Source: Pleurocapsa sp. CCALA 161 (GTDB lineage Bacteria; Cyanobacteriota; Cyanobacteriia; Cyanobacteriales; Xenococcaceae). Taken from it: a stretch of DNA of 49,662 nucleotides. Each line of letters opens with the position of its first letter. Position 1 is the first letter of the stretch. Under the pieces are notes generated by a model, which was given only the letters and a program-made list of their open reading frames with translations, did not search any database and was not told where the DNA came from. The translations under genes and the position numbers were made by a program. Positions 34,974-44,724 of this stretch are shown here, in pieces. Where the stretch lies: NCBI RefSeq assembly GCF_003003995.1, contig NZ_PVWF01000029.1, positions 1 through 49,662 on the forward strand. Direction: 5' to 3'.

Positions 34974-35732
34974 TTAATTACGTCCCGCTGTTACTCCACC
35001 ATCTACAGGCAAAACAACCCCAGTAATCCAGCCAGAGCGATCGCTATCAGCTAGAAATAAGACTGCTTCGGTAATGTCTTGGGCTTGTCCATTGCGACCA
35101 AGGGGATGAAAATCATTAAACGAGGCTAATTGTTCAGATGTTAATAAAGAGTCAAATAAGGGAGTTTCCACCACAGCAGGAGCGATCGCATTTACTCTAA
35201 TTTGGTCAGGTGCAAATTCAATGGCTAGATTTTTAGTTAGTGCATGAACAGCGCCTTTGGCAGTCGAAGAACCACTACAGGGAGTAGCAGCTACAGCATG
35301 TAATGCCCACATTGAACCAGTATTAATAATCGCGCCACTACCTCTTTTTTGCATTTTGGCGATCGCAGCTTGTGACAGAAAAAAGTAGCCTCGGAGTAAA
35401 TTAAGATAATCTTCTAAATCTTTTTCTGTATGGTCAAGGAAATGTTTTGGCTCAAAGACACCTGCATTATTAAACAAAATATCTACCCCACCGAAATGTT
35501 CAACAGCAGCAAAAACTAACTTTTGTCGGATTTTTGCTTGACCGATATCCCCTGCAACCCAAGCAATGTGTTTTCCTGTCGGATCGATTTGTGCTGCGGT
35601 GTATTCCAATACCTCTGAACGACGACCATTTAAAACTACTTTTGCCCCTGCTTCAACAAATGCGCGGGCTGTATTTGCCCCAATACCACTACCACCACCA
35701 GTAATCAACACGACTTTATCTTGTAGGCTCAT
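34974..35732 (-). CDS. Short-chain dehydrogenase/reductase with Ser in place of catalytic Tyr
   Basis: Classical SDR of 252 residues from the ATG at 35732 (the frame extends to a TTG at 35765). TGGGSGIG (11-18) binds NAD(P), NNAG is at 88-91, catalytic Ser140 is in INTGSMW and Lys159 in STAKGAVHAL. The Tyr expected four residues before the Lys is Ser155; codon TCT could come from TAT by one change. The C-terminal NAIAPAVVETPLF and GVVLPVDGGVTA are typical. Unless a nearby residue compensates, redox activity should be poor. Confidence 0.88.
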   Translation of the reverse strand: MSLQDKVVLITGGGSGIGANTARAFVEAGAKVVLNGRRSEVLEYTAAQIDPTGKHIAWVAGDIGQAKIRQKLVFAAVEHFGGVDILFNNAGVFEPKHFLDHTEKDLEDYLNLLRGYFFLSQAAIAKMQKRGSGAIINTGSMWALHAVAATPCSGSSTAKGAVHALTKNLAIEFAPDQIRVNAIAPAVVETPLFDSLLTSEQLASFNDFHPLGRNGQAQDITEAVLFLADSDRSGWITGVVLPVDGGVTAGRN

Positions 35733-36145
35733 AATTTGATTTCTCTCAATAAATCTCGATCGCAATCATAATCAGCGATCAATTATGCTTACAAGCAGAC
35801 ACAAGTTTGTGAGGTAGGGTACTTTTATGAAAGAATTGCCGTCGTGTCAGGAGAAAATTAATCTGCAAAGAAATGTAAACGTAGCTACTTTCGTTCTCGT
35901 TTACTTTAATTGAAGCTATAAACGATATTATTCAAGATTTCAGACATCAAATTAGCAACGCCTTTTTAGTAATATTTTTATTTAAATTTTATTAATAAAT
36001 CAAATTGAGACTTATATTTATTGGATATGGTAGCATTTGCACCAATTTCTGACATTGAATTCAGAAATCAACTATATTATTTGAGGCTTATTTTGACAAG
36101 GAAAGATTGACAAACGTGGCTCCAAAAAATAACAGTAAAATACTC
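35733..36145. other. 413-bp AT-rich spacer, no gene seen
   Basis: This spacer lies upstream of the SDR gene and downstream of a hypothetical membrane gene. It contains a perfect 8-bp hairpin at 36045-36068 (ATTTCTGA / TCAGAAAT, 8-nt loop) and a TTGACAA direct repeat around 36094-36114. A 28-codon ORF from 35827 has no support. It marks the edge of the AT-rich island. Confidence 0.45.
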
Positions 36146-36460
36146 CTATAACTTAACAGAGTCTGCTGAACAAATATGAATGTAACCCTGAATAGATGCG
36201 AATATAACACAGCCAAGTATGATTGCAAAAAAGCAAAAAAATACTAAAAGAAATAGAAAAACAGATGGTTTTTCATCTTTGTACACGTACACCTTTTTAT
36301 GGACTCCATATGTGGGGGCGATGACTTCAATACATCCTGTTCTAATAGCATTAATAATATTGACTAAAACTGTAATTTCTAAAGTTATTAGTATAAGAAT
36401 ATATGTGATTAAACCTATTTTTTTTAATAGCATAAGTATGGCATTATTAGAATTGCACAT
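36146..36460 (-). CDS. Hypothetical two-helix membrane protein
   Basis: Not recognised. 104 residues with a first hydrophobic helix at ~10-37 (IGLITYILILITLEITVLVN), a charged middle (YGVHKKVYVYKDEKPS) and a second helix at ~68-90 (FLLVFFCFFAIILGCVIFA). ATG start. AT-rich and without recognised homologues, so it may be a lineage-specific gene of the island. Confidence 0.5.
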   Translation of the reverse strand: MCNSNNAILMLLKKIGLITYILILITLEITVLVNIINAIRTGCIEVIAPTYGVHKKVYVYKDEKPSVFLFLLVFFCFFAIILGCVIFASIQGYIHICSADSVKL

Positions 36461-36540
36461 AATAATTACTAATTTCCTTCTTATTTATTGATTAAACGAT
36501 CAATTTTGCCAAGTCAATTCATCTACACCTCCAGCTTTAA

Positions 36541-36628
36541 TAGACCTCTTGCATGAATAGTAGATTAAGGTTTTTTTTCCTTTACCCTTGCATCAAGATA
36601 GTTAATTACGATTCGCGCAAGAAGTCTA
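36541..36628. mobile_element. 88-bp MITE-like element with TA ends
   Basis: The left end TAGACCTCTTGCATGAATAG pairs with the right end, whose reverse complement reads TAGACTTCTTGCGCGAATCG, about 16 matches in 20. Both ends finish in TA, as expected for an IS630/Tc1-type insertion that duplicates TA. No ORF. Family assignment is inference. Confidence 0.6.
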
Positions 36629-36849
36629 ATAATTAAAAATGCTTTCTGATTAGGAAGATAGTCAATAATCCTAACTCAATCATTTTTTTGAGTTTTTTTA
36701 TTGCGCCCAATCTGCTAAATCAATAGTGATTACTTGAATAATTTTTTCTTGATTGTCGAAGAATAAAGCATCACTAGATTTATTCTTTTGAAGAGGTTTA
36801 TAACAAATTTTTGCATTAGATTTACCTTTTAACTAAATTGGCAAAAAGC
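36629..36849 (-). other. Possible gene remnant and hairpin
   Basis: On the minus strand a frame of about 44 codons is open from just after a stop near 36833 to TAA at 36698-36700, ending IIQVITIDLADWAQ. It has protein-like composition but no start codon, so it may be the tail of a lost gene. AACTCAA / TTGAGTT at 36673-36694 followed by T forms a plus-strand terminator-like hairpin with no plus-strand gene before it. Confidence 0.3.
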
Positions 36850-37107
36850 CTAATTTTGTCTTGAGTTTCGAGTGTTAATTTCAATTTTATTTAGCAGATC
36901 GATAACTACAATAATCGTTTGAGTTCCGATGTAGTTAGCGACGCATAACAATACAGATAAGACCAAAAAGACCAAAAATAAAGTTTTGTAGTTACTTTCA
37001 ATCGTATAAAGAGACGCAAGTTTTGCATACATGACTGCAAGAATAAGCGCACCAATATAGCCAAGAAGTTGGAAGAATTTGAGAATTGTAACTAGTTGAG
37101 AATACAT
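36850..37107 (-). CDS. Hypothetical two-helix membrane protein
   Basis: Not recognised. 85 residues with hydrophobic helices at ~8-30 (ILKFFQLLGYIGALILAVMY) and ~42-62 (LFLVFLVLSVLLCVANYIGT), then a short amphipathic tail ending KIEINTRNSRQN. Its ATG is 2 bp after the TAA of a 40-codon ORF, itself directly after the RTX gene, suggesting an operon. Confidence 0.5.
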   Translation of the reverse strand: MYSQLVTILKFFQLLGYIGALILAVMYAKLASLYTIESNYKTLFLVFLVLSVLLCVANYIGTQTIIVVIDLLNKIEINTRNSRQN

Positions 37108-37109
37108 AC

Positions 37110-37232
37110 TTATTTTTTATGATTTTGATATTGACCAATTACTCCAAGAATCGGTTCAATTAGTAAACATATAGCTGGAAAAAAGCCGATGATAGTAAAA
37201 AAAGCGCAATCACACCACGATGTTTCGATCAA
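37110..37232 (-). CDS. Very small membrane protein (40 aa), tentative
   Basis: Starts at a TTG one base after the RTX stop codon and ends 2 bp before the next ATG. The product has a Cys-containing N terminus (IETSWCDCAF) and one or two hydrophobic segments (FFTIIGFFPAICLLIEPILG), ending GQYQNHKK. The tight packing between two genes on the same strand and the membrane-like composition argue that it is real. The non-ATG start and lack of Shine-Dalgarno argue against. Confidence 0.4.
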   Translation of the reverse strand: MIETSWCDCAFFTIIGFFPAICLLIEPILGVIGQYQNHKK

Positions 37233-37233
37233 A

Positions 37234-38361
37234 TCAAATTAAACTTTGACTATCTACCGTATCAGGCAGAGCATAATAAGCAATTCCTTCAGATTGAAAA
37301 TCAGGTAAATTCTCAGTTACATTATCTCTTTCGGTTGCAGAAGGAGTATAAAAATGCGCTCCTGTAGTGGGATTAAAAAAGCGATAAATTGGAATTGTGC
37401 CTTCTACTTGAGTTTCATAAGCAAAGAATGCCTCTCCCTCAAAACTAAAGTTGTCCAAATTCTCAACTGCATCTCTTTCATCTTCAGAAACTGTATACAA
37501 ATGAACTCCCGTATCTTGATTAAGAAAACGATAAACTGGTACAGGTTCACCTGCTCCAGTTAAAGGATCTACCCCTCGATAAGAAGCTCCTTCACCTTGA
37601 AAATTAGTTAATTCATCTTCAATAAAATTTCTTTCTTCTTCGTTAGCGGTATAAAAATGAACTCCTGTATCGGTATTAAAAAAGCGATAGACAGTTGTTC
37701 CTGAATCTCCGCCATCTATAGGCGTAGAATTAGCAAAAAAGTCAGCAACATCCTGATGTTCTGTCTCTATAATATTGTTAAGAACTACAGGCGCACCCGC
37801 TCCTAAATTTCCTTGCCCATCAAAGTAATTAACAATTGTTAGATCATTATTTGCCTCAGCGACACCGTCACGATTAAGATCGACGATTAAATTAGTGCCA
37901 GATTTTTCTAAGCCGACAATTCCCTGTTGAGGACTAGATATTTCTATCGCAGCATCACCCCAAGTATTGGGATCGTTAAAAAGTTTAACACCTTCATTAA
38001 TTTCATCAATAGTGCTTATATCTGCTAAACTCGCTAAAGATGCAACATCGGTATTTCCTGCAATAATTAAAATACCATTATTACTACCCTGCTCATCTTG
38101 AATAACACTGCCTCCTCCTGTTTCTAAGGCAATAGTGTAAAAATCATCGCCTTCTCCTCCTTTTAAGGTATCGCTGCCACCGACATCAATAATAGTTTCA
38201 CCTTTACCACCACCATACAAAAAGTCATTTCCTGCTCCCCCAGTTAGGCTATCATTACCACCAAAGCCGAAGAGAACGTCATTTCCTAAACCACCTTCAA
38301 TAGTGTCGTTTTCTGCTCCACCATTAAGAGTATCATTGCCAACAGTTCCAATCAGATTCAT
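37234..38361 (-). CDS. RTX calcium-binding protein with DUF5648-like repeats
   Basis: A 375-residue, likely secreted protein. Residues ~8-60 hold hemolysin-type nonapeptides (GGAENDTIEGGLGND, GFGGNDSLTGGAGNDFLYGG) that bind Ca. A middle domain of ~150 residues includes a dockerin- or EF-like VDLNRDGVAEANNDL. Residues ~222-370 are three copies of a 45-residue unit of the form VYRFFNTDTGVHFYTANEEE, ending FQGEGASYRG, recognisable as DUF5648. Proteins of this kind usually leave by type I secretion. No secretion genes are nearby. It heads a run of tiny membrane genes. Confidence 0.85.
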   Translation of the reverse strand: MNLIGTVGNDTLNGGAENDTIEGGLGNDVLFGFGGNDSLTGGAGNDFLYGGGKGETIIDVGGSDTLKGGEGDDFYTIALETGGGSVIQDEQGSNNGILIIAGNTDVASLASLADISTIDEINEGVKLFNDPNTWGDAAIEISSPQQGIVGLEKSGTNLIVDLNRDGVAEANNDLTIVNYFDGQGNLGAGAPVVLNNIIETEHQDVADFFANSTPIDGGDSGTTVYRFFNTDTGVHFYTANEEERNFIEDELTNFQGEGASYRGVDPLTGAGEPVPVYRFLNQDTGVHLYTVSEDERDAVENLDNFSFEGEAFFAYETQVEGTIPIYRFFNPTTGAHFYTPSATERDNVTENLPDFQSEGIAYYALPDTVDSQSLI

Positions 38362-38405
38362 ATTTAAATACCACCCTTTATTTTTTCTTTTCTTGTTTTT
38401 TGTCT

Positions 38406-39224
38406 TTAACTATTTGTCGATCGCGAGAAACCAGATACATCTTTTTGAATACCGAGTCTAAAAGACTGCTGGCTCGACTTTGAACCAATACTAATATTCA
38501 TGCTGTTAATCAAGTATTGACCGCTTTCCTTGACGATCTGAATTTCGATATTTGCCATGCTTTTTTCAAAGATTGCCACGATTTCATAGTTCATTAAAAT
38601 GAATTTCCAGAGTTTCATTGGCTCTGGCTTGATAGTAAAAAACTCCCACCACTTTGTTGTGGACGAACCATTGGCACGCTCACTTTTGAAACCTTCTCTA
38701 CTTACTTGATAACAAGTTAGTTTTCCAAGAGTTTTGGCACAAAGATCGAAGATTGTTTGCAACTCTTTTTCCTCTAAATATTTTAGAAAGTCAGATGAGG
38801 CTCTTTGAACAAGTTCTTGGTAATTCCAATTAGAAACAATCTCTGGAATAGCAGCGTTTAAATATTTGTCTACTTCCCCCTTGACTTTCTCAAAAGCTGT
38901 GTCATAGATCGGCATTGTTATAAAAAATAGTGGAATAATAATTAACCAGCTAAAGAGTAATAGAAAAGGGAAAATTAATAGGAGGAAAACCAATTTTAAT
39001 AGAAAGAAAATAATTCTTAATATTTTGATTAGCTTTTGTATTTTTCCAAGCTGATGGTAGCTTCTGTGACTGTTAGAATTGAGGTCACTATTATAAAAGG
39101 TATGGCGATCACTGCTGCTTACAACAAAATGACTGGAATGGCGACGAGAATTCATGCTTTTAACTGCATCAACAATTAACAACACAAAACCAATTACCAG
39201 TAAAAATAAAATAATAATTTTCAT
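38406..39224 (-). CDS. Hypothetical membrane protein (272 aa)
   Basis: Not recognised. N-terminal helix (MKIIILFLLVIGFVLLIVDA), a Ser/His-rich linker, then a long hydrophobic hairpin at ~66-106 (LRIIFFLLKLVFLLLIFPFL, then LFSWLIIIPLFFITMPIYDT). After that comes a soluble C-terminal domain of ~160 residues with mixed alpha/beta pattern (IFDLCAKTLGKLTCYQVSRE, WKFILMNYEIVAIFEKSM). It sits between the TPM remnant and the RTX gene on the same strand, so may belong to the PspA-led run. ATG start. Confidence 0.6.
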   Translation of the reverse strand: MKIIILFLLVIGFVLLIVDAVKSMNSRRHSSHFVVSSSDRHTFYNSDLNSNSHRSYHQLGKIQKLIKILRIIFFLLKLVFLLLIFPFLLLFSWLIIIPLFFITMPIYDTAFEKVKGEVDKYLNAAIPEIVSNWNYQELVQRASSDFLKYLEEKELQTIFDLCAKTLGKLTCYQVSREGFKSERANGSSTTKWWEFFTIKPEPMKLWKFILMNYEIVAIFEKSMANIEIQIVKESGQYLINSMNISIGSKSSQQSFRLGIQKDVSGFSRSTNS

Positions 39225-39364
39225 AACAGGTCTATTTAGTTCGATTAATAGTGAGTTTGAGACACTGCATCTAAAAAAATCTTGCTCGATTAAAGCGATC
39301 GCCTTGACTAACTACCTTAATATGTTCAATTGAAGTAAAACTAGACAAAGCGGAAATTATACTT

Positions 39365-39610
39365 TTAATAACTGCCCCCAGCACCGCCACCTCCACTTTC
39401 ACCACCATTGAGTTGACTTTCGGTGCGATTGCTGAGAATATCCGCTGAATCTGTAACCCAAGCATCATCAATCTGTTTAGGATTAATCTGTTTAGGATTC
39501 GGTACTTCTTCAAGGGTTAGAGCGTAGCTAGGTAATGAAGCCAACAAAGCGCTCGAGCTAGCTATACCTGTTCCTATTGTTTGTTTGTTTTTAAAAAGTC
39601 TTTTGTTCAT
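39365..39610 (-). pseudogene. TPM-domain (YgcG-like) protein with core deleted
   Basis: The 81-codon frame has a signal peptide (GIASSSALLASLPSYAL) and the start of a TPM domain, WVTDSADILSNRTESQLN. It jumps directly to a Gly-rich tail, GGESGGGGAGGSY, which is the usual C terminus of these proteins. The ~200 residues between are missing, in frame. A 15-bp tandem duplication at 39470-39499 gives the doubled NPKQI. Shine-Dalgarno GGAGC before the ATG. Intact relatives are membrane-linked and often occur near PspA or LemA genes. Confidence 0.7.
39470..39499. repeat. 15-bp tandem duplication in the TPM remnant
   Basis: AATCTGTTTAGGATT is repeated twice without a gap, adding five codons in frame. 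It looks like a recent slippage event. Confidence 0.85.
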
Positions 39611-39646
39611 CGTTTTTGCTCCATAAATAATTTATTTTTATGACAA

Positions 39647-39871
39647 CTACTCTTCGCTATTATCGGAACTATTTGGTGTTTCTAATTGATGTCGAATCAA
39701 GATTTGGTTTTGCTTTCTAATATCTCTAAGAAAAAGCTGAGTATCGTGAATATTTACGGCGATTTATTTTAATAAGTTGATGATTTTATCTGTCCCATAT
39801 ATCCATCTGGTAAGAGCAACATATACCAACAATAAAACCACCCAGAATACTAATAAAAATGTCAAGTCCAT
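39647..39871 (-). pseudogene. Small single-helix membrane protein gene with an in-frame TAA
   Basis: From ATG 39871, 35 codons encode a single-helix protein (MDLTFLLVFWVVLLLVYVAL, ending TDKIINLLK). A TAA stops it at 39764-39766. The same frame then continues for 38 codons with a coherent amphipathic helix (IAVNIHDTQLFLRDIRKQNQ) and an acidic tail, to TAG at 39647. The two parts read like one 74-residue membrane-anchored helical protein split by a nonsense mutation. It starts 8 bp after the preceding gene ends. Confidence 0.55.
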
Positions 39872-39879
39872 ATTTTTTA

Positions 39880-41262
39880 TTAATCTAAAGGTACAAAAGA
39901 ATAGCCAAATTCCGAATTAGAATCGACTTCAACCTGAACTAACTGCACTGCCTGATTGCGATCGCCTGAAGGCAAAAACTTAACTGTTCCCGATGCGCCA
40001 GTTATCGAAAAGTCTGCTTGTGATAAGGTTTGCTGTATTCCTTTACGGCTAGGATTATCTTCTATACCTGGAATCAAAGATTGAGTGGCATCATAAGCCA
40101 TCGCCGTGCGCCAGTTAACTTTTCCTTTCCAAAGATTATTTGCTGCTTGAATAAAGTCAGGGTTAGTATTTCCCTCTATGTGCCAAGGTACAGCTAACAC
40201 CATACCCACCATATTTTCTCCCGCACTCTCTAAAGTTTCGGGGATATAAAGATCATCACCACCCAATAAAGGTAATTGGCGATTGTTAACTTTAGCAATC
40301 TCGAAAGTTTGGTTAAGAGTCGTGGAATTGGTTAGCAAAACCAGTGCTTCTGCACCTTGATTCATTGCCTGCTGTACTGCCCGATCTGCATCAAAATTAG
40401 GATCGATAACGTCTAATTCGGCGACAATTTCGCCTCCATTGCTTAATAAACTAGTGCTAAAAGCATCTTTAAGGGATTTACTGTAATTACTCTCAGAATT
40501 ATAAAAAATAGCTGCCTTTTGCTTGCTTAGTTTTCCCAAGAAATATTCAGCTAAAGAATTCCCTGCCAGAAAATCGCTTGGTACAGTACGAAAGATATAA
40601 TCTCCAGCATCAGCAAGCGATGTAGAGGTACTGATCGGGGAAATAGCCACTAAACCATTTTGTTGATAGATAGGTGCAGCAGCTAAGGAGGCATCACTAG
40701 AATAATGACCTACAAGTCCCAGAATTGATTGATCTTTGACTAGTTGATTAGCAACCTCGATAGCAATTTTCGGTTCGTTTTCGTCATTGACAATTTCCAC
40801 CTGCAATTTACCACCTTGGGAATTAAATTCATTTTGTGCTTGTGCTACTCCTCTCAGCATTTCTTGTGCCAGATTTAAATCACTACTAATGGGAGCAACA
40901 ACAGCAATTTTGACAGGATTTAAAGTAGCTACTTGAGCATTATTTAAATAGATTAGTGTTTCTGGATCGTTAGGAAATTGTTCTAGAGATGCTTGAAAGG
41001 AAGCGATCGCACTTTGGTAATCTTGATCGGCGAAGGCGTTTATTCCTTCTTTTTTTTCATCAGTTGCTTTGGCCATAATTAATAAATGTTCTCCCAGACT
41101 GAAGCTTTTTTTTAGCAATTGAGGTTGAGCAATTGATGGTAACAAATTACTAACTTGCTGAGAATTTTGCTTGAGTAATTTAGTTCCACCAAAAATAATT
41201 AAGCCCATTAAAATAAAAACAATTGGGGGTGGGGCTTTTCTAGTTTTAGATTGATTAGTCAT
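39880..41262 (-). CDS. Membrane-anchored periplasmic binding protein-like receptor (Peripla_BP_6)
   Basis: A 460-residue protein from ATG 41262 with AAGAAGGG as Shine-Dalgarno; the frame extends to a TTG at 41286. An uncleaved N-terminal helix (PPIVFILMGLIIFGGTKLL) anchors it. A TPR-like pair of helices follows (~70-105, AFADQDYQSAIASFQASLEQ). The remainder is a type I periplasmic binding fold of the branched-chain amino acid type: PVKIAVVAPISSDLNLAQEM, ILGLVGHYSSDASLAAAPIY, LVAISPISTSTSL, AMAYDATQSL. No permease or ATPase gene is near, so a sensing role is more likely than uptake. It follows the PspA-like gene by 24 bp. Confidence 0.85.
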   Translation of the reverse strand: MTNQSKTRKAPPPIVFILMGLIIFGGTKLLKQNSQQVSNLLPSIAQPQLLKKSFSLGEHLLIMAKATDEKKEGINAFADQDYQSAIASFQASLEQFPNDPETLIYLNNAQVATLNPVKIAVVAPISSDLNLAQEMLRGVAQAQNEFNSQGGKLQVEIVNDENEPKIAIEVANQLVKDQSILGLVGHYSSDASLAAAPIYQQNGLVAISPISTSTSLADAGDYIFRTVPSDFLAGNSLAEYFLGKLSKQKAAIFYNSESNYSKSLKDAFSTSLLSNGGEIVAELDVIDPNFDADRAVQQAMNQGAEALVLLTNSTTLNQTFEIAKVNNRQLPLLGGDDLYIPETLESAGENMVGMVLAVPWHIEGNTNPDFIQAANNLWKGKVNWRTAMAYDATQSLIPGIEDNPSRKGIQQTLSQADFSITGASGTVKFLPSGDRNQAVQLVQVEVDSNSEFGYSFVPLD

Positions 41263-41286
41263 GACTAAACCCTTCTTTATAAACAA

Positions 41287-42009
41287 CTATACTTTTTGGT
41301 TTTTTAAATTTTCTAGACGACTATTTATTTGTTCATCTAGGGATAACTTATCGATATTATTTTGTATTTGCTCTGTTTCGTCTTCTGCCAATTCAGCTTT
41401 GGTAGTTTCATAGACATATCTTCCCTCAACGCTATTTTGTGCCTCTTCAAACTGCGATCGCGCTGAATCAATATCCAATTCTGTAGTAATGTCATGAATA
41501 TCTGCCATTATTTCATTTAGTTCCGACACAGCTTTAAGATTTGCCATGTCTAATTTATAAGCTTGGATTTTTTCTTTTTCTTTTTTCAGTTTTTCTGTGG
41601 CTGCCGTGGCGATTTGTTTAGCCTGTTCAACTTGCTGTTTTAATTGAGGCATAATCTTTTCAATGGCGATCGCTTTAGTGATTAATAATCTGGCTGCTTC
41701 TTCATCTCCTCGGCGATAGGCTAGTTCTGCTTGCTGTTCGGCTTCTCGAAATTCTTGCTGTTTTTTGTCATATCTATCCTGTGTCAATTTATATCCAGCC
41801 ACTACTTTTGAAACTCCTTCAGTTAGTTGTGCGATCGATTCTTGCATTGACTGTAAAGACTCTTGTGCTACTTTTTGGGCAATTTTGCCTCCAGATTCTA
41901 CAGGTAAACCCCAAACCCATTTCCAAGTTCCTACTAAGGTTCTTCCTGCTGTTTCACCCAATAGCCAATAGATAAATTTTTTAAAGGTAATTTTTTTCAT
42001 TTCTTTCAT
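41287..42009 (-). CDS. PspA/IM30-like membrane stress protein
   Basis: A 240-residue, nearly all-helical protein. Residues ~45-205 resemble the PspA/IM30 coiled-coil hairpin: MQESIAQLTEGVSKVVAGYK, then AELAYRRGDEEAARLLITKA, then a long Gln/Lys/Glu helix. The first 40 residues include a Trp-rich segment (RTLVGTWKWVWGLPVES), not the standard amphipathic PspA start, so membrane contact may differ. Canonical Vipp1/PspA have ~220-260 residues. It is the first gene of the leftward run and probably acts at the inner face of the cytoplasmic or thylakoid membrane. Confidence 0.75.
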   Translation of the reverse strand: MKEMKKITFKKFIYWLLGETAGRTLVGTWKWVWGLPVESGGKIAQKVAQESLQSMQESIAQLTEGVSKVVAGYKLTQDRYDKKQQEFREAEQQAELAYRRGDEEAARLLITKAIAIEKIMPQLKQQVEQAKQIATAATEKLKKEKEKIQAYKLDMANLKAVSELNEIMADIHDITTELDIDSARSQFEEAQNSVEGRYVYETTKAELAEDETEQIQNNIDKLSLDEQINSRLENLKNQKV

Positions 42010-42476
42010 TTTTTATAGTCAATTCAATAATTAGATCTTCTTCTTTTTGCTACTTTAAGATTTGACTATTTTATGTTATGAACTTTGTCACTGGAAAATC
42101 AATCCCCAAAAAAGTAGACAACTGTAATGAACTAATAATCATTTTTAATTGATGAAGTAGAAAAAGATGAAAATAAAAAGAACAAAAAAATATTCCCTAA
42201 CTCTTTCTTTGTTCTTAATCTCATTTTTATCTTTTTTTTAAATCTTTGTCGATACAAAAAAGTTAGTTAAAATAAGTAATTTTTGTTTAATTTACAATCT
42301 TTTTTTTAGTTTTTATTGTATTTTTTTTCGACAAATATTATAAAAAGTTATTTTTTGTTATAAAAAGTCAGATCTAGTTTTTCTCAAGGCAATAATTTTC
42401 CAATCTAAATAATAAGGCTTGCTTGCTCTAATTTCTTTGATAGTTTTATACTTTAAAGAGTTTGCAGATTAACAAT
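42010..42476. promoter_or_regulatory. AT-rich divergent spacer PspA-like / HTH-TIR-methyltransferase
   Basis: 467 bp with long T and A runs. Beside the direct repeat at 42338-42368 it has a widely spaced inverted repeat, TTTGTCGA (42245-42252) and TCGACAAA (42328-42335). It should hold promoters for both leftward and rightward genes. Poly-T tracts suggest intrinsic curvature. Confidence 0.5.
42338..42368. promoter_or_regulatory. Direct repeat TTATAAAAAGT, period 20 bp
   Basis: TTATAAAAAGT occurs at 42338-42348 and 42358-42368, two helical turns apart, about 110 bp before the start of the HTH-TIR-methyltransferase gene. This spacing would suit a dimeric regulator such as the HxlR-type protein encoded downstream or the HTH of the fusion itself. 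Function is inferred. Confidence 0.35.
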
Positions 42477-44333
42477 ATGTGTAAAAAATGGCTAGAGCGT
42501 GTAGAGAGAGGCTTTTATCAAGAGCATGGCAAGTATTTAGACGATATACAAAGAGAAATATTAATAAGATGCTATGATTCAAAACAAAGCTATGAAAAAA
42601 TAGCAACAGCATTAAACTATAGTCCCAGAACTATAAATTTACTCGCTTCTCAATTATGGAAATTACTCACGGATGTATTTAAAGAAAAAGAAAAAGAAAA
42701 AGTAAAAGTTACTAAAGCAAATCTTCGAGGAGCAGTAAAACGTTTTATAGATCAACAAGATCTAGAGGAGGTCGATCCGATCAACTCAACGACGACAAAA
42801 ACTTTTCAAATCTTCATCAGCGATCGCAGCAAAAACTCAGAACCCAGCATAGCCGAACAACTGCGAAAAACTTTACAGGACGCTAGACAAGCAACAACTA
42901 TCGGTCAGGATTGGCTGCAACGTAGTAACAAAGAACTAAATGAATATGATTGTTTCCTGCTGATCGTCTCCAGTCACTCAGTAGATGAAAGTGAGATCAT
43001 GATCGAAGAATTACAAAGAGCTAGGGAATCGCGCGAAACTAGACCAGACAAACCATTAACAATTTTACTCATTCACGCTGGTTCTCATCTGTCTTTACCG
43101 CTTAATCATCCTCTACATAAGCAGCTTCAGGATATTTCTCAATCAGAATGTTTATCGTCAAGCGATTTGCCAATTCTTGTAGCAGAAATCATGAAGTGCT
43201 TGGAAACGACGAATGAATCAACTTTACGGGGATTGTTATTATTAATACAAAAATTAGGTAAACTCAAAATCTCAGATAATTGGATGCTAACCTACGTTGG
43301 CGAAAATCAACTACATAAGCTAGGTGACTTAGTTCTTGATTTAAAGAATCGTAAAATTAGGTCTGGATACGCATACTGGGGCGTGGGTCCTACTAGAATG
43401 TGGACAACAGCTTGTACAGATCCCTGTTATCACATGAGGGAAAATATTGAAAGGTTTCCCGATCATGCTCGTCAACTCGCCAATTATGTCAATAAAGAGC
43501 AATACAACTTTGTTAGTCTTGGTGTGGGAGAAGGAAGCAAAGATAGCAATATAATTAGAGACTTTTTTAACCGAGACGATCAAGCCAAACCCAGAGATGA
43601 TTTTTCATATCTACCTGTAGATATGAGTCTCGATATGTTGAGGGTGGCGATCGGCAGAATTCAAGAATTACCATCTCATCGTCGTATTGCGATTCAACGG
43701 GATATAGAAACCAAAGAAGGTATGGCAGAAATAGCTCATATTGCTAAGGTACTCGGAGAAAATAGACCAATACTTTACGGATTTATAGGTAATACTATTG
43801 CCAATGTAGAAGACCCAGAACACGTTCTAAATAATATAGTTCAGGTCATGAAAAGCAATGATTTATTACTTTTTGAAGCTCAAATAATTAATGACTCTGC
43901 ATTAACGAATAATCAACTTCAGAAAACAATACAGTATGTTAAAGAAGAATACGAAGGAATTTCCTTTCGACAGTTTGCATTAAGCGCTCTTCTGCAAAAT
44001 TCAGACTTGTCAGTAGAACCAAAGGAAAGAGATTCATGCTATTTGGTTGAGGTATCCCTACAGCCTTGGAAATATGGACAGGTTTTACAAATAGGGTGTT
44101 GTTTTGAAAATAATACTGACAAGGAACTTTATCTGACATTCCCCAATGAAGATACAACTACACTGGGTTTAAAAGAAAAAATTCATCTTTATTGTTCGCG
44201 AAAATTTACCCAAGGCACTTTAGAACATTTTGTTCAAGCGACAAATCTCAGTATTCTAGGAAAAAGTTTGTATCTAACTAATAGAGGTACTGGATTTGTG
44301 GTGATGATGCTTCAAAGAAACTATCAGAATTGA
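42477..44333 (+). CDS. HTH - TIR-like - EgtD-like methyltransferase fusion protein
   Basis: A 618-residue multidomain protein from ATG 42477 (a TTG lies 15 nt upstream). Residues ~15-75 form the HTH seen at the N terminus of cyanobacterial conflict and signalling proteins: LDDIQREILIRCYDSKQSYE, ALNYSPRTINLLASQLWKLL, then KVTKANLRGAVKRF. Residues ~107-200 are a TIR-like domain: FQIFISDRSKNSEPSIAEQL, IGQDWLQRSNKELNEYDCFL, SEIMIEELQRARESRETRPD. Residues ~270-615 look like an EgtD-type (Methyltransf_33) SAM enzyme: FVSLGVGEGSKDSN as SAM loop, YLPVDMSLDMLRVAI as the acidic strand. No signal peptide or membrane helix. Paired with an HxlR-type regulator gene 40 bp downstream. Third-domain identity is the least certain. 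Confidence 0.78.
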   Translation: MCKKWLERVERGFYQEHGKYLDDIQREILIRCYDSKQSYEKIATALNYSPRTINLLASQLWKLLTDVFKEKEKEKVKVTKANLRGAVKRFIDQQDLEEVDPINSTTTKTFQIFISDRSKNSEPSIAEQLRKTLQDARQATTIGQDWLQRSNKELNEYDCFLLIVSSHSVDESEIMIEELQRARESRETRPDKPLTILLIHAGSHLSLPLNHPLHKQLQDISQSECLSSSDLPILVAEIMKCLETTNESTLRGLLLLIQKLGKLKISDNWMLTYVGENQLHKLGDLVLDLKNRKIRSGYAYWGVGPTRMWTTACTDPCYHMRENIERFPDHARQLANYVNKEQYNFVSLGVGEGSKDSNIIRDFFNRDDQAKPRDDFSYLPVDMSLDMLRVAIGRIQELPSHRRIAIQRDIETKEGMAEIAHIAKVLGENRPILYGFIGNTIANVEDPEHVLNNIVQVMKSNDLLLFEAQIINDSALTNNQLQKTIQYVKEEYEGISFRQFALSALLQNSDLSVEPKERDSCYLVEVSLQPWKYGQVLQIGCCFENNTDKELYLTFPNEDTTTLGLKEKIHLYCSRKFTQGTLEHFVQATNLSILGKSLYLTNRGTGFVVMMLQRNYQN

Positions 44334-44373
44334 TTTGTGGTGTCCTGAAGTTGTTGTGACAAAGCATAATTTT

Positions 44374-44724
44374 ATGAAAAAATCGCCGTCGCCTCGCAAA
44401 TCAAGCGATCTGCCCAAAAATATCAACATAGCTGCTGTAGTAGAAGCAGTTTTTGGCTGTAAATGGTCATTGAGTATACTAGGTTTAATTCGTCGTGGTG
44501 TATGTCGCCCTAGTGCGATTGAGCGAGAAATAGAAGGCTTGACTCCTCGCGTTAAAAACTATTATTTTCGTCGCATGATGAATTTAGGTATTTTAGAAAA
44601 GATTGTTTATCCTGAAGTCCCACCCCATGTAGAATATCGACTAACTGATTTTGGACGACGTTTTCTGCCAATTATTGATGCAATTGAAAAGCTACAAAAA
44701 GATCTAGAACAAGAAAATCAATAA
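44374..44724 (+). CDS. HxlR-family transcriptional regulator
   Basis: A 116-residue winged-helix protein. GCKWSLSILGLIRRGVCRPS, then IEGLTPRVKNYYFRRMMNLG and VPPHVEYRLTDFGRRFLPII are the HxlR blocks. The conserved Cys before KW is present and might sense redox or electrophiles, as in some relatives. It starts 40 bp after the fusion gene on the same strand (the frame extends to a TTG at 44335), so it is probably co-transcribed and may control the locus. Confidence 0.85.
   Translation: MKKSPSPRKSSDLPKNINIAAVVEAVFGCKWSLSILGLIRRGVCRPSAIEREIEGLTPRVKNYYFRRMMNLGILEKIVYPEVPPHVEYRLTDFGRRFLPIIDAIEKLQKDLEQENQ

Follow-up and report, generated by a model that had tools for sequence, protein, structure and literature searches.

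A divergent EgtD-like methyltransferase fused to HTH and TIR domains in Pleurocapsa, and its relatives with TIR or membrane-protein partners

A stretch of 49,662 nucleotides from Pleurocapsa sp. CCALA 161 (contig NZ_PVWF01000029.1 of assembly GCF_003003995.1; this whole stretch is called the window below) carries a gene in which a helix-turn-helix (HTH) unit, a TIR domain and a predicted S-adenosylmethionine (SAM) methyltransferase are joined, followed by a gene for an HxlR-type regulator (Table 1). An alternative TTG start of the fusion gene is possible 15 bases upstream of the ATG. In Pfam searches the predicted protein scores 54.1 bits against Methyltransf_33 (PF10017, cut-off 23) and 28.4 bits against TIR_2 (PF13676), barely above the cut-off of 28, and the matches to HTH_38 and Sigma70_r4 at residues 18-54 are weak and below the cut-off. 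The AlphaFold2 model, built on an alignment of 27 sequences (mean predicted local distance difference test, pLDDT, 81.4; predicted TM-score, pTM, 0.59), is ordered over roughly residues 3-93, 110-243 and 268-614. With the whole model as query, EgtD fills ranks 1-15 of a Foldseek search of the PDB, at a best E of 2.4e-13 and TM-scores of 0.72-0.81 normalised by target (TMt) and 0.39-0.44 by query (TMq), the latter being low because the query carries other domains; the top match is an engineered EgtD M252V,E282A variant with tryptophan. No TIR protein is found among the best 50 rows of this search, in which the query was the whole model and not the TIR part alone. Five full-length cyanobacterial orthologues, from Aliterella (L039), Komarekiella (L040), Iningainema (L041), Rhizonema (L042) and UBA11370 (L043), keep the domain order at 51-52% identity overall and 62-66% in the methyltransferase, and therefore the fusion is not a chance product. 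The three-part fusion is real. A preliminary description, made from the sequence alone, had called the three domains and an EgtD-type fold; Pfam, the model and the orthologues agree with the domain call, the Foldseek ranking bears out the fold, and the TIR label holds by a narrow score.

Table 1. Positions of the fusion gene, its domains and the HxlR-related features in the window.
Feature	Position	Strand	Basis or remark
HTH-TIR-methyltransferase fusion gene	42477..44333	+	single open reading frame, ATG start to stop, 618 aa
Helical HTH unit, N-terminal, residues 3-93	42483..42755	+	weak Pfam HTH matches, AlphaFold2 model
Degenerate TIR domain, residues 110-243	42804..43205	+	TIR_2 score, alignment with relatives, Cat1 alignment
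Predicted EgtD-like SAM methyltransferase domain, divergent family, residues 268-614	43278..44318	+	Pfam, model, Foldseek, residue alignment
HxlR-type regulator, judged a bystander	44374..44724	+	Pfam 57.6 bits; 40 bp downstream of fusion gene
HxlR 5'-end remnant	35807..35894	+	beside SDR gene
SDR gene	34974-35765	-	Pfam

Members of the divergent EgtD-like family to which the methyltransferase belongs occur in four phyla. Two short peptide patterns followed by alignment yielded 43 loci among 71 pattern matches in 84,980 species genomes, a survey that misses members carrying neither pattern, and three further loci were taken from 386 cyanobacterial genomes, giving a total of 46 (L034-L036 and L039-L081). 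Active-site and tree rows cover 43 members, with L077-L079 and L081 left out, and residues were mapped onto EgtD from a profile alignment by manual count. Invariant in 43/43 are the equivalents of EgtD Tyr39, Tyr56, Gly86, Lys92, Asp113, Asp141, Gly161, Thr163 and Asn166; the equivalent of Ser284 is Ser or Thr in every member. Glu282, which in EgtD contacts the imidazole of histidine, is by alignment kept in none of the 43, being replaced by Tyr (35) or Leu (8). For the Tyr206 equivalent the position is unsure, and an invariant Tyr492 lies nearby. Thus most residues for SAM and for the amino-acid backbone, as their roles (other than those of Lys92, Asp141 and Gly161) are given in a study of EgtD (PMC8593015), are retained in the aligned sequences and the Glu282 equivalent is lost. 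This pattern suggests a SAM-binding protein for an amino-acid-like ligand with a side chain other than that of histidine. Histidine or related amines had been put forward as methylation substrates to assay; histidine is unlikely to be one because Glu282 is kept nowhere in the family, and ergothioneine synthesis is likewise disfavoured, given that the window protein reaches 32.2 bits against TIGR03438 (32-50 bits in the five family proteins scanned; cut-off 290.9) and that its own genome encodes a separate canonical EgtD (373 bits).

What accompanies the methyltransferase follows a rule. By tblastn, 37 of the 46 loci, all with stand-alone methyltransferases, have downstream on the same strand a gene whose product is a small membrane protein (about 190-200 aa), at match distances of -101 to 1483 bp (<200 bp in 33/37). 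At the eight loci with a TIR-fused methyltransferase no membrane-protein gene was seen, and the remaining locus, L081, is cut by a contig end. The TIR occurs in three arrangements: HTH-TIR-methyltransferase in the window protein and L039-L043, methyltransferase-TIR in Dictyobacter (L044, TIR_2 62.3 bits) and in a Ktedonobacteraceae metagenome-assembled genome (MAG; L059, 55.2 bits), and TIR-methyltransferase in a Burkholderiaceae MAG (L076, 37.3 bits). Compared by blastp, the window TIR resembles that of L044 weakly (35% over 54 residues) and has no match in L076. A tree of the 43 labelled members with EgtD requires at least two partner changes; its root was not used because the EgtD branch is extremely long. 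Profile searches of genomes, in which a fraction of the initial candidates was scored (8 of 28 in one case), gave a concordant picture in reverse: among the 386 cyanobacterial genomes the membrane-protein profile matches three (G064, G103 and G125), at the three stand-alone methyltransferase loci, and the methyltransferase profile matches the same three and the genome of the window. In the phylum of L044 one of 251 genomes and in that of L076 one of 398 was matched, each the starting genome itself (E 1e-30), and in the order of L044 two of 47, both already known (E 1e-20).

The AlphaFold2 model of the membrane partner is all-helical (mean pLDDT 80.4). No Pfam family matched it above cut-off in seven sequences, PADLOC returned nothing for two sequences, and the best NCBIfam match among three sequences had an E of 0.09. 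An additional hydrophobic stretch is present at residues 89-111 of the L074 protein. The stand-alone pairs occupy gene orders that are common to related genomes: in several Nostoc loci a CobN/Mg-chelatase gene (cluster c10, assigned by Pfam on L049 only) follows the pair, and the Kribbella loci have neighbouring clusters of open reading frames in common.

In the lineage of the window the TIR appears degenerate. TIR_2 scores of the orthologues are 20.3 (L039), 19.4 (L041), 14.7 (L042) and 19.5 bits (L043), with L040 unlisted, all four below the cut-off of 28. An 18-row profile of the window TIR part and its relatives reaches solved TIR proteins weakly, Cat1 at E 0.0017 and others at up to E 0.1, interspersed with designed helical proteins, one of which scores equal to Cat1; the TIR call therefore draws chiefly on the Pfam match, the succession of strands and helices in the model, and the relatives. 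The catalytic Glu of TIR NADases lies in a WxxxE motif. A candidate for it, Glu178 (43008-43010), is kept in 6/6 aligned HTH-TIR-methyltransferase proteins, the Trp of the motif is not conserved in them, and by alignment only the BB-loop region is 7-9 residues shorter in five of the six than in relatives such as L007. As judged from these sequences, catalysis by this TIR is doubtful. The expectation that the TIR makes or degrades NAD-derived signals is accordingly weak for the window protein itself, the more so as 37 of the 46 related loci have the membrane protein and no TIR.

The HTH-TIR half has a wider distribution than the fusion. It is common to cyanobacterial proteins ending in an AAA_35 ATPase, with at least 26 loci (L006-L031) retrieved among more matches in the 386 genomes. 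Nine of the 26 were scanned with Pfam; all nine carry TIR_2 and AAA_35, with TIR_2 at 32-71 bits, above the window protein. The front part of these proteins is swapped, being a guanylate cyclase, CHAT, trypsin, kinase or HTH-like unit, or nothing, in the nine scanned; the HTH-like N-terminus of some is HTH by reading of the sequence and is unnamed by Pfam. A second protein of the Pleurocapsa genome (G000:C44:12314-12622) has the HTH type of the window protein at 32% identity and, on reading its sequence, continues into an apparent NTPase.

By a reading of the sequences, the HTH of L039 appears to be of the same type as that of the window protein; the other four orthologues match Cro/C1-type HTH at 17.6 (L040), 22.0 (L041), 22.6 (L042) and 17.7 bits (L043), against a cut-off of 22. 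In three close pairs among L040, L041 and L042, the HTH has a ratio of nonsynonymous to synonymous substitution rates (dN/dS) of 0.63-1.05, the TIR one of 0.35-0.49 and the methyltransferase one of 0.14-0.35; the fast evolution of the HTH may also reflect relaxed constraint. Among the neighbours of the five orthologues a single cluster is shared, in L041 and L043 only. This is a divergent upstream gene (L041:6444-6926 and L043:6287-6949, minus strand; 35-39% identical to each other), which in L043 alone gives a weak match of sigma-factor type and has no Pfam match above cut-off; the genes upstream of the L040 and L042 fusions give no match to it.

A question arises, is the HxlR gene part of the same system? 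The preliminary description had joined the two genes, and gene context contradicts it. By tblastn in the 46 related loci, some with short flanks, the window HxlR finds nothing better than E 0.37, and four other genomes of the host's family carry HxlR at 77-91% identity, none of them with an intact fusion; the HxlR gene was rejected as a partner on these two grounds. The fusion itself is present in one of 27 family genomes, the window's own. HxlR adjoins an SDR gene in G1067 and G1072 and lies about 1.6 kb from one in G1060; in G1070 its neighbour is the same amidohydrolase gene as in the window (Pfam Amidohydro_1; nagA by sequence reading), and what is left of the fusion gene, its final 32 codons, precedes HxlR. 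Within the window, an 88-base copy of the HxlR 5' end beside the SDR gene is identical to 44354-44441 at 60 of 88 bases, and the two copies bracket a low-GC segment (35890-44366) that holds the fusion gene. GC content is 34.7% in the segment, 36.5% in the fusion gene and 39.9% in the remainder of the window. The bracketing copies could mark an insertion or rearrangement beside the SDR gene. Thus the fusion gene sits in a segment that looks acquired, the HxlR gene beside it being the older of the two, and a close relative seems to have lost the fusion. The AT-rich island described earlier is recovered as this low-GC segment; of broken genes one, the HxlR remnant, was found, and as a defence island the segment is at most a candidate.

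Two further observations concern the surroundings. Divergently upstream of the fusion gene, positions 39880-42009 encode a TPR-like periplasmic-binding protein and a PspA/IM30-like protein, and a TPR-periplasmic-binding protein is also encoded near the methyltransferase-TIR gene of L059 (L059:4297-6990), perhaps by chance. Inside the low-GC segment, positions 37234-38361 encode a DUF5648 protein that carries RTX calcium-binding repeats, and three 66-base repeats lie inside this gene.

How may the parts work together? From the architecture, the partner rule, the retained residues and the loss of Glu282, as read from sequence, alignment and gene order, we infer a catalytic activity, a ligand, a direction of switching and a biological role as follows. 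The window protein would be one form of a two-part module, made of a constant divergent EgtD-like methyltransferase and a variable output unit, the latter being either a TIR fused before or after the methyltransferase or a small membrane protein made from its own gene downstream. The ligands of the methyltransferase would be SAM and an amino-acid-like molecule other than histidine, which would be bound through its backbone and methylated on its amino group. That the methyltransferase is constant and the output exchanged suggests that the reaction, its product or the state of the ligand switches the effector, which would be the membrane protein in the stand-alone form and the TIR in the fused forms, where the output might be NAD cleavage or TIR assembly. 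For the window lineage, recognition or control would come in addition from the N-terminal HTH, and the decayed TIR may act by assembly and not by catalysis. The earlier idea that one domain feeds the other is thus kept in a recast form, with a constant methyltransferase and a partner that varies. We give a probability of roughly 45% to an N-methyltransferase of a non-histidine, amino-acid-like ligand coupled to exchangeable effectors. A role in signalling or defence is suggested by the exchange of the TIR, the patchy spread and the fast HTH; the case for defence is weakened by the gene orders that the stand-alone pair has in common among Nostoc and among Kribbella genomes, and by the collections searched having yielded no copy on a phage or plasmid.

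Several observations weigh against the proposed module. The equivalent of Phe142, which stacks on adenine in EgtD according to PMC8593015, is Ile in 5/43 members, the window protein included, and the equivalents of Phe47 and Ser162 are Trp and Asn in all 43. One of the two search patterns includes the Asp113 equivalent, which accounts for part of the invariance at that position. Nor do the 46 loci count as independent, since 18 of the 43 from the species genomes bear Kribbella titles, and the stand-alone genes L077-L079 look broken in their assemblies. The membrane gene is more than 1.3 kb away in L048 and L062, and its absence is less certain in L042, L043 and L059, where the sequence extends only 214, 904 and 978 bases past the match. 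The genome searches, in addition, scored only part of their candidates. As for the membrane partner, there is one clear hydrophobic helix in 6/6 proteins, with the next candidate below threshold in each, and a fold search of the PDB gave no match at E <= 0.001.

Other readings of the same evidence have to be weighed. The EgtD-like domain may be a sensor and not an enzyme, such that a change in its ligand, SAM or an amino-acid-type molecule, releases the TIR or membrane partner, for instance upon depletion of SAM by a phage enzyme. This alternative deserves to be taken seriously, although we hold it to be clearly less probable than the coupled N-methyltransferase. It accords with the invariance of most binding residues alongside a missing Glu282 equivalent and, in 5/43 members, Ile in place of Phe142, with a partner that varies, and with the fast evolution of HTH and TIR in the three close orthologues; yet Asn166, a Ser or Thr at Ser284 and the majority of SAM contacts persist in combination, which is what an active enzyme would show, and a phage link was not found in viral contigs and phage records. 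Somewhat less likely again is a small-molecule pathway whose product would be an amino-acid betaine, protective under stress or a natural product, with the membrane protein as its exporter or anchor and the TIR fusions as a secondary development. EgtD relatives make betaines, and the conserved gene orders of the stand-alone pairs, with CobN/Mg-chelatase in Nostoc and the Kribbella clusters, fit such a pathway, but it leaves unexplained that a TIR substitutes for the membrane protein in three arrangements.

The two remaining alternatives concern the window more than the family. That the fusion protein arose by accident and is in decay is improbable: the low TIR_2 scores of the window protein and four orthologues relative to the nine AAA_35 relatives, the occurrence of the fusion in a single family genome with a remnant in G1070, and an HTH dN/dS near 1 would fit decay, but six full-length copies exist in six genomes, and methyltransferase and TIR are under purifying selection in the three pairs examined. 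Least probable of all is a single signalling or defence unit of fusion and HxlR regulator, for which speak the short spacing on one strand and the G1070 remnant still beside HxlR, and which is at odds with the tblastn result in the related loci and with the family genomes that have HxlR and lack an intact fusion.

If the coupled N-methyltransferase is the correct reading, a methyltransferase core with exchangeable TIR or membrane partners would point to non-nucleotide signalling, or the sensing of SAM or an amino acid, coupled to a TIR. To our knowledge, bacterial immune messengers are mostly nucleotides or NAD derivatives. Messengers of these kinds are also treated in PMC11204291. A bolder form, in which a methylated amino-acid-type messenger produced by the core enzyme acts as the switch for interchangeable effectors, in analogy to the nucleotide messengers of CBASS and Thoeris, strikes us as unlikely. 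The compact one- or two-gene form of the module in several species makes it directly testable. That no described system has this architecture, as first stated, agrees with our searches: PADLOC has no match for the fusion or HxlR at E up to 1, and no description of a methyltransferase/TIR/membrane-protein module was found in the literature searched, mostly without subscription papers. Viral contigs and phage records held no copy, plasmids held one AAA-like protein matching the TIR part and no stand-alone methyltransferase, and a search of genome contigs with the whole window protein returned no relative.

Among known systems, Thoeris combines a TIR with a ThsA effector, and one of its types makes His-ADPR, as stated in PMC11204291. 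The TIR domain and signalling by a histidine conjugate are the points of likeness, so that a TIR next to an EgtD-like enzyme is suggestive by analogy, whereas no ThsA-like domain is present among the window neighbours scanned with Pfam, a subset of the open reading frames; a simple scheme built on histidine is made less likely by the loss of Glu282 and by the existence of a form without TIR. The SLATT two-transmembrane (2TM) effectors of conflict systems, described in PMC7159879, resemble the membrane partner in being small membrane proteins beside a presumed signalling enzyme, but the partner is without a family or PDB fold match and its second membrane helix is unsure. The TIR-AAA_35 proteins share with the window protein and its orthologues the TIR and, by reading of the sequences, both HTH types, and differ in ending in an AAA_35 ATPase where the window protein ends in the methyltransferase. 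With EgtD (PF10017, TIGR03438) the family shares the fold, most SAM-site residues and the residues holding the amino and carboxyl groups, and it differs in the loss of Glu282, in scoring below the TIGR03438 cut-off in the five proteins scanned and in having partner proteins. On these comparisons we rate the module as belonging to the known kind that combines a core with an exchangeable effector, with a core enzyme that appears not to have been met in that kind before.

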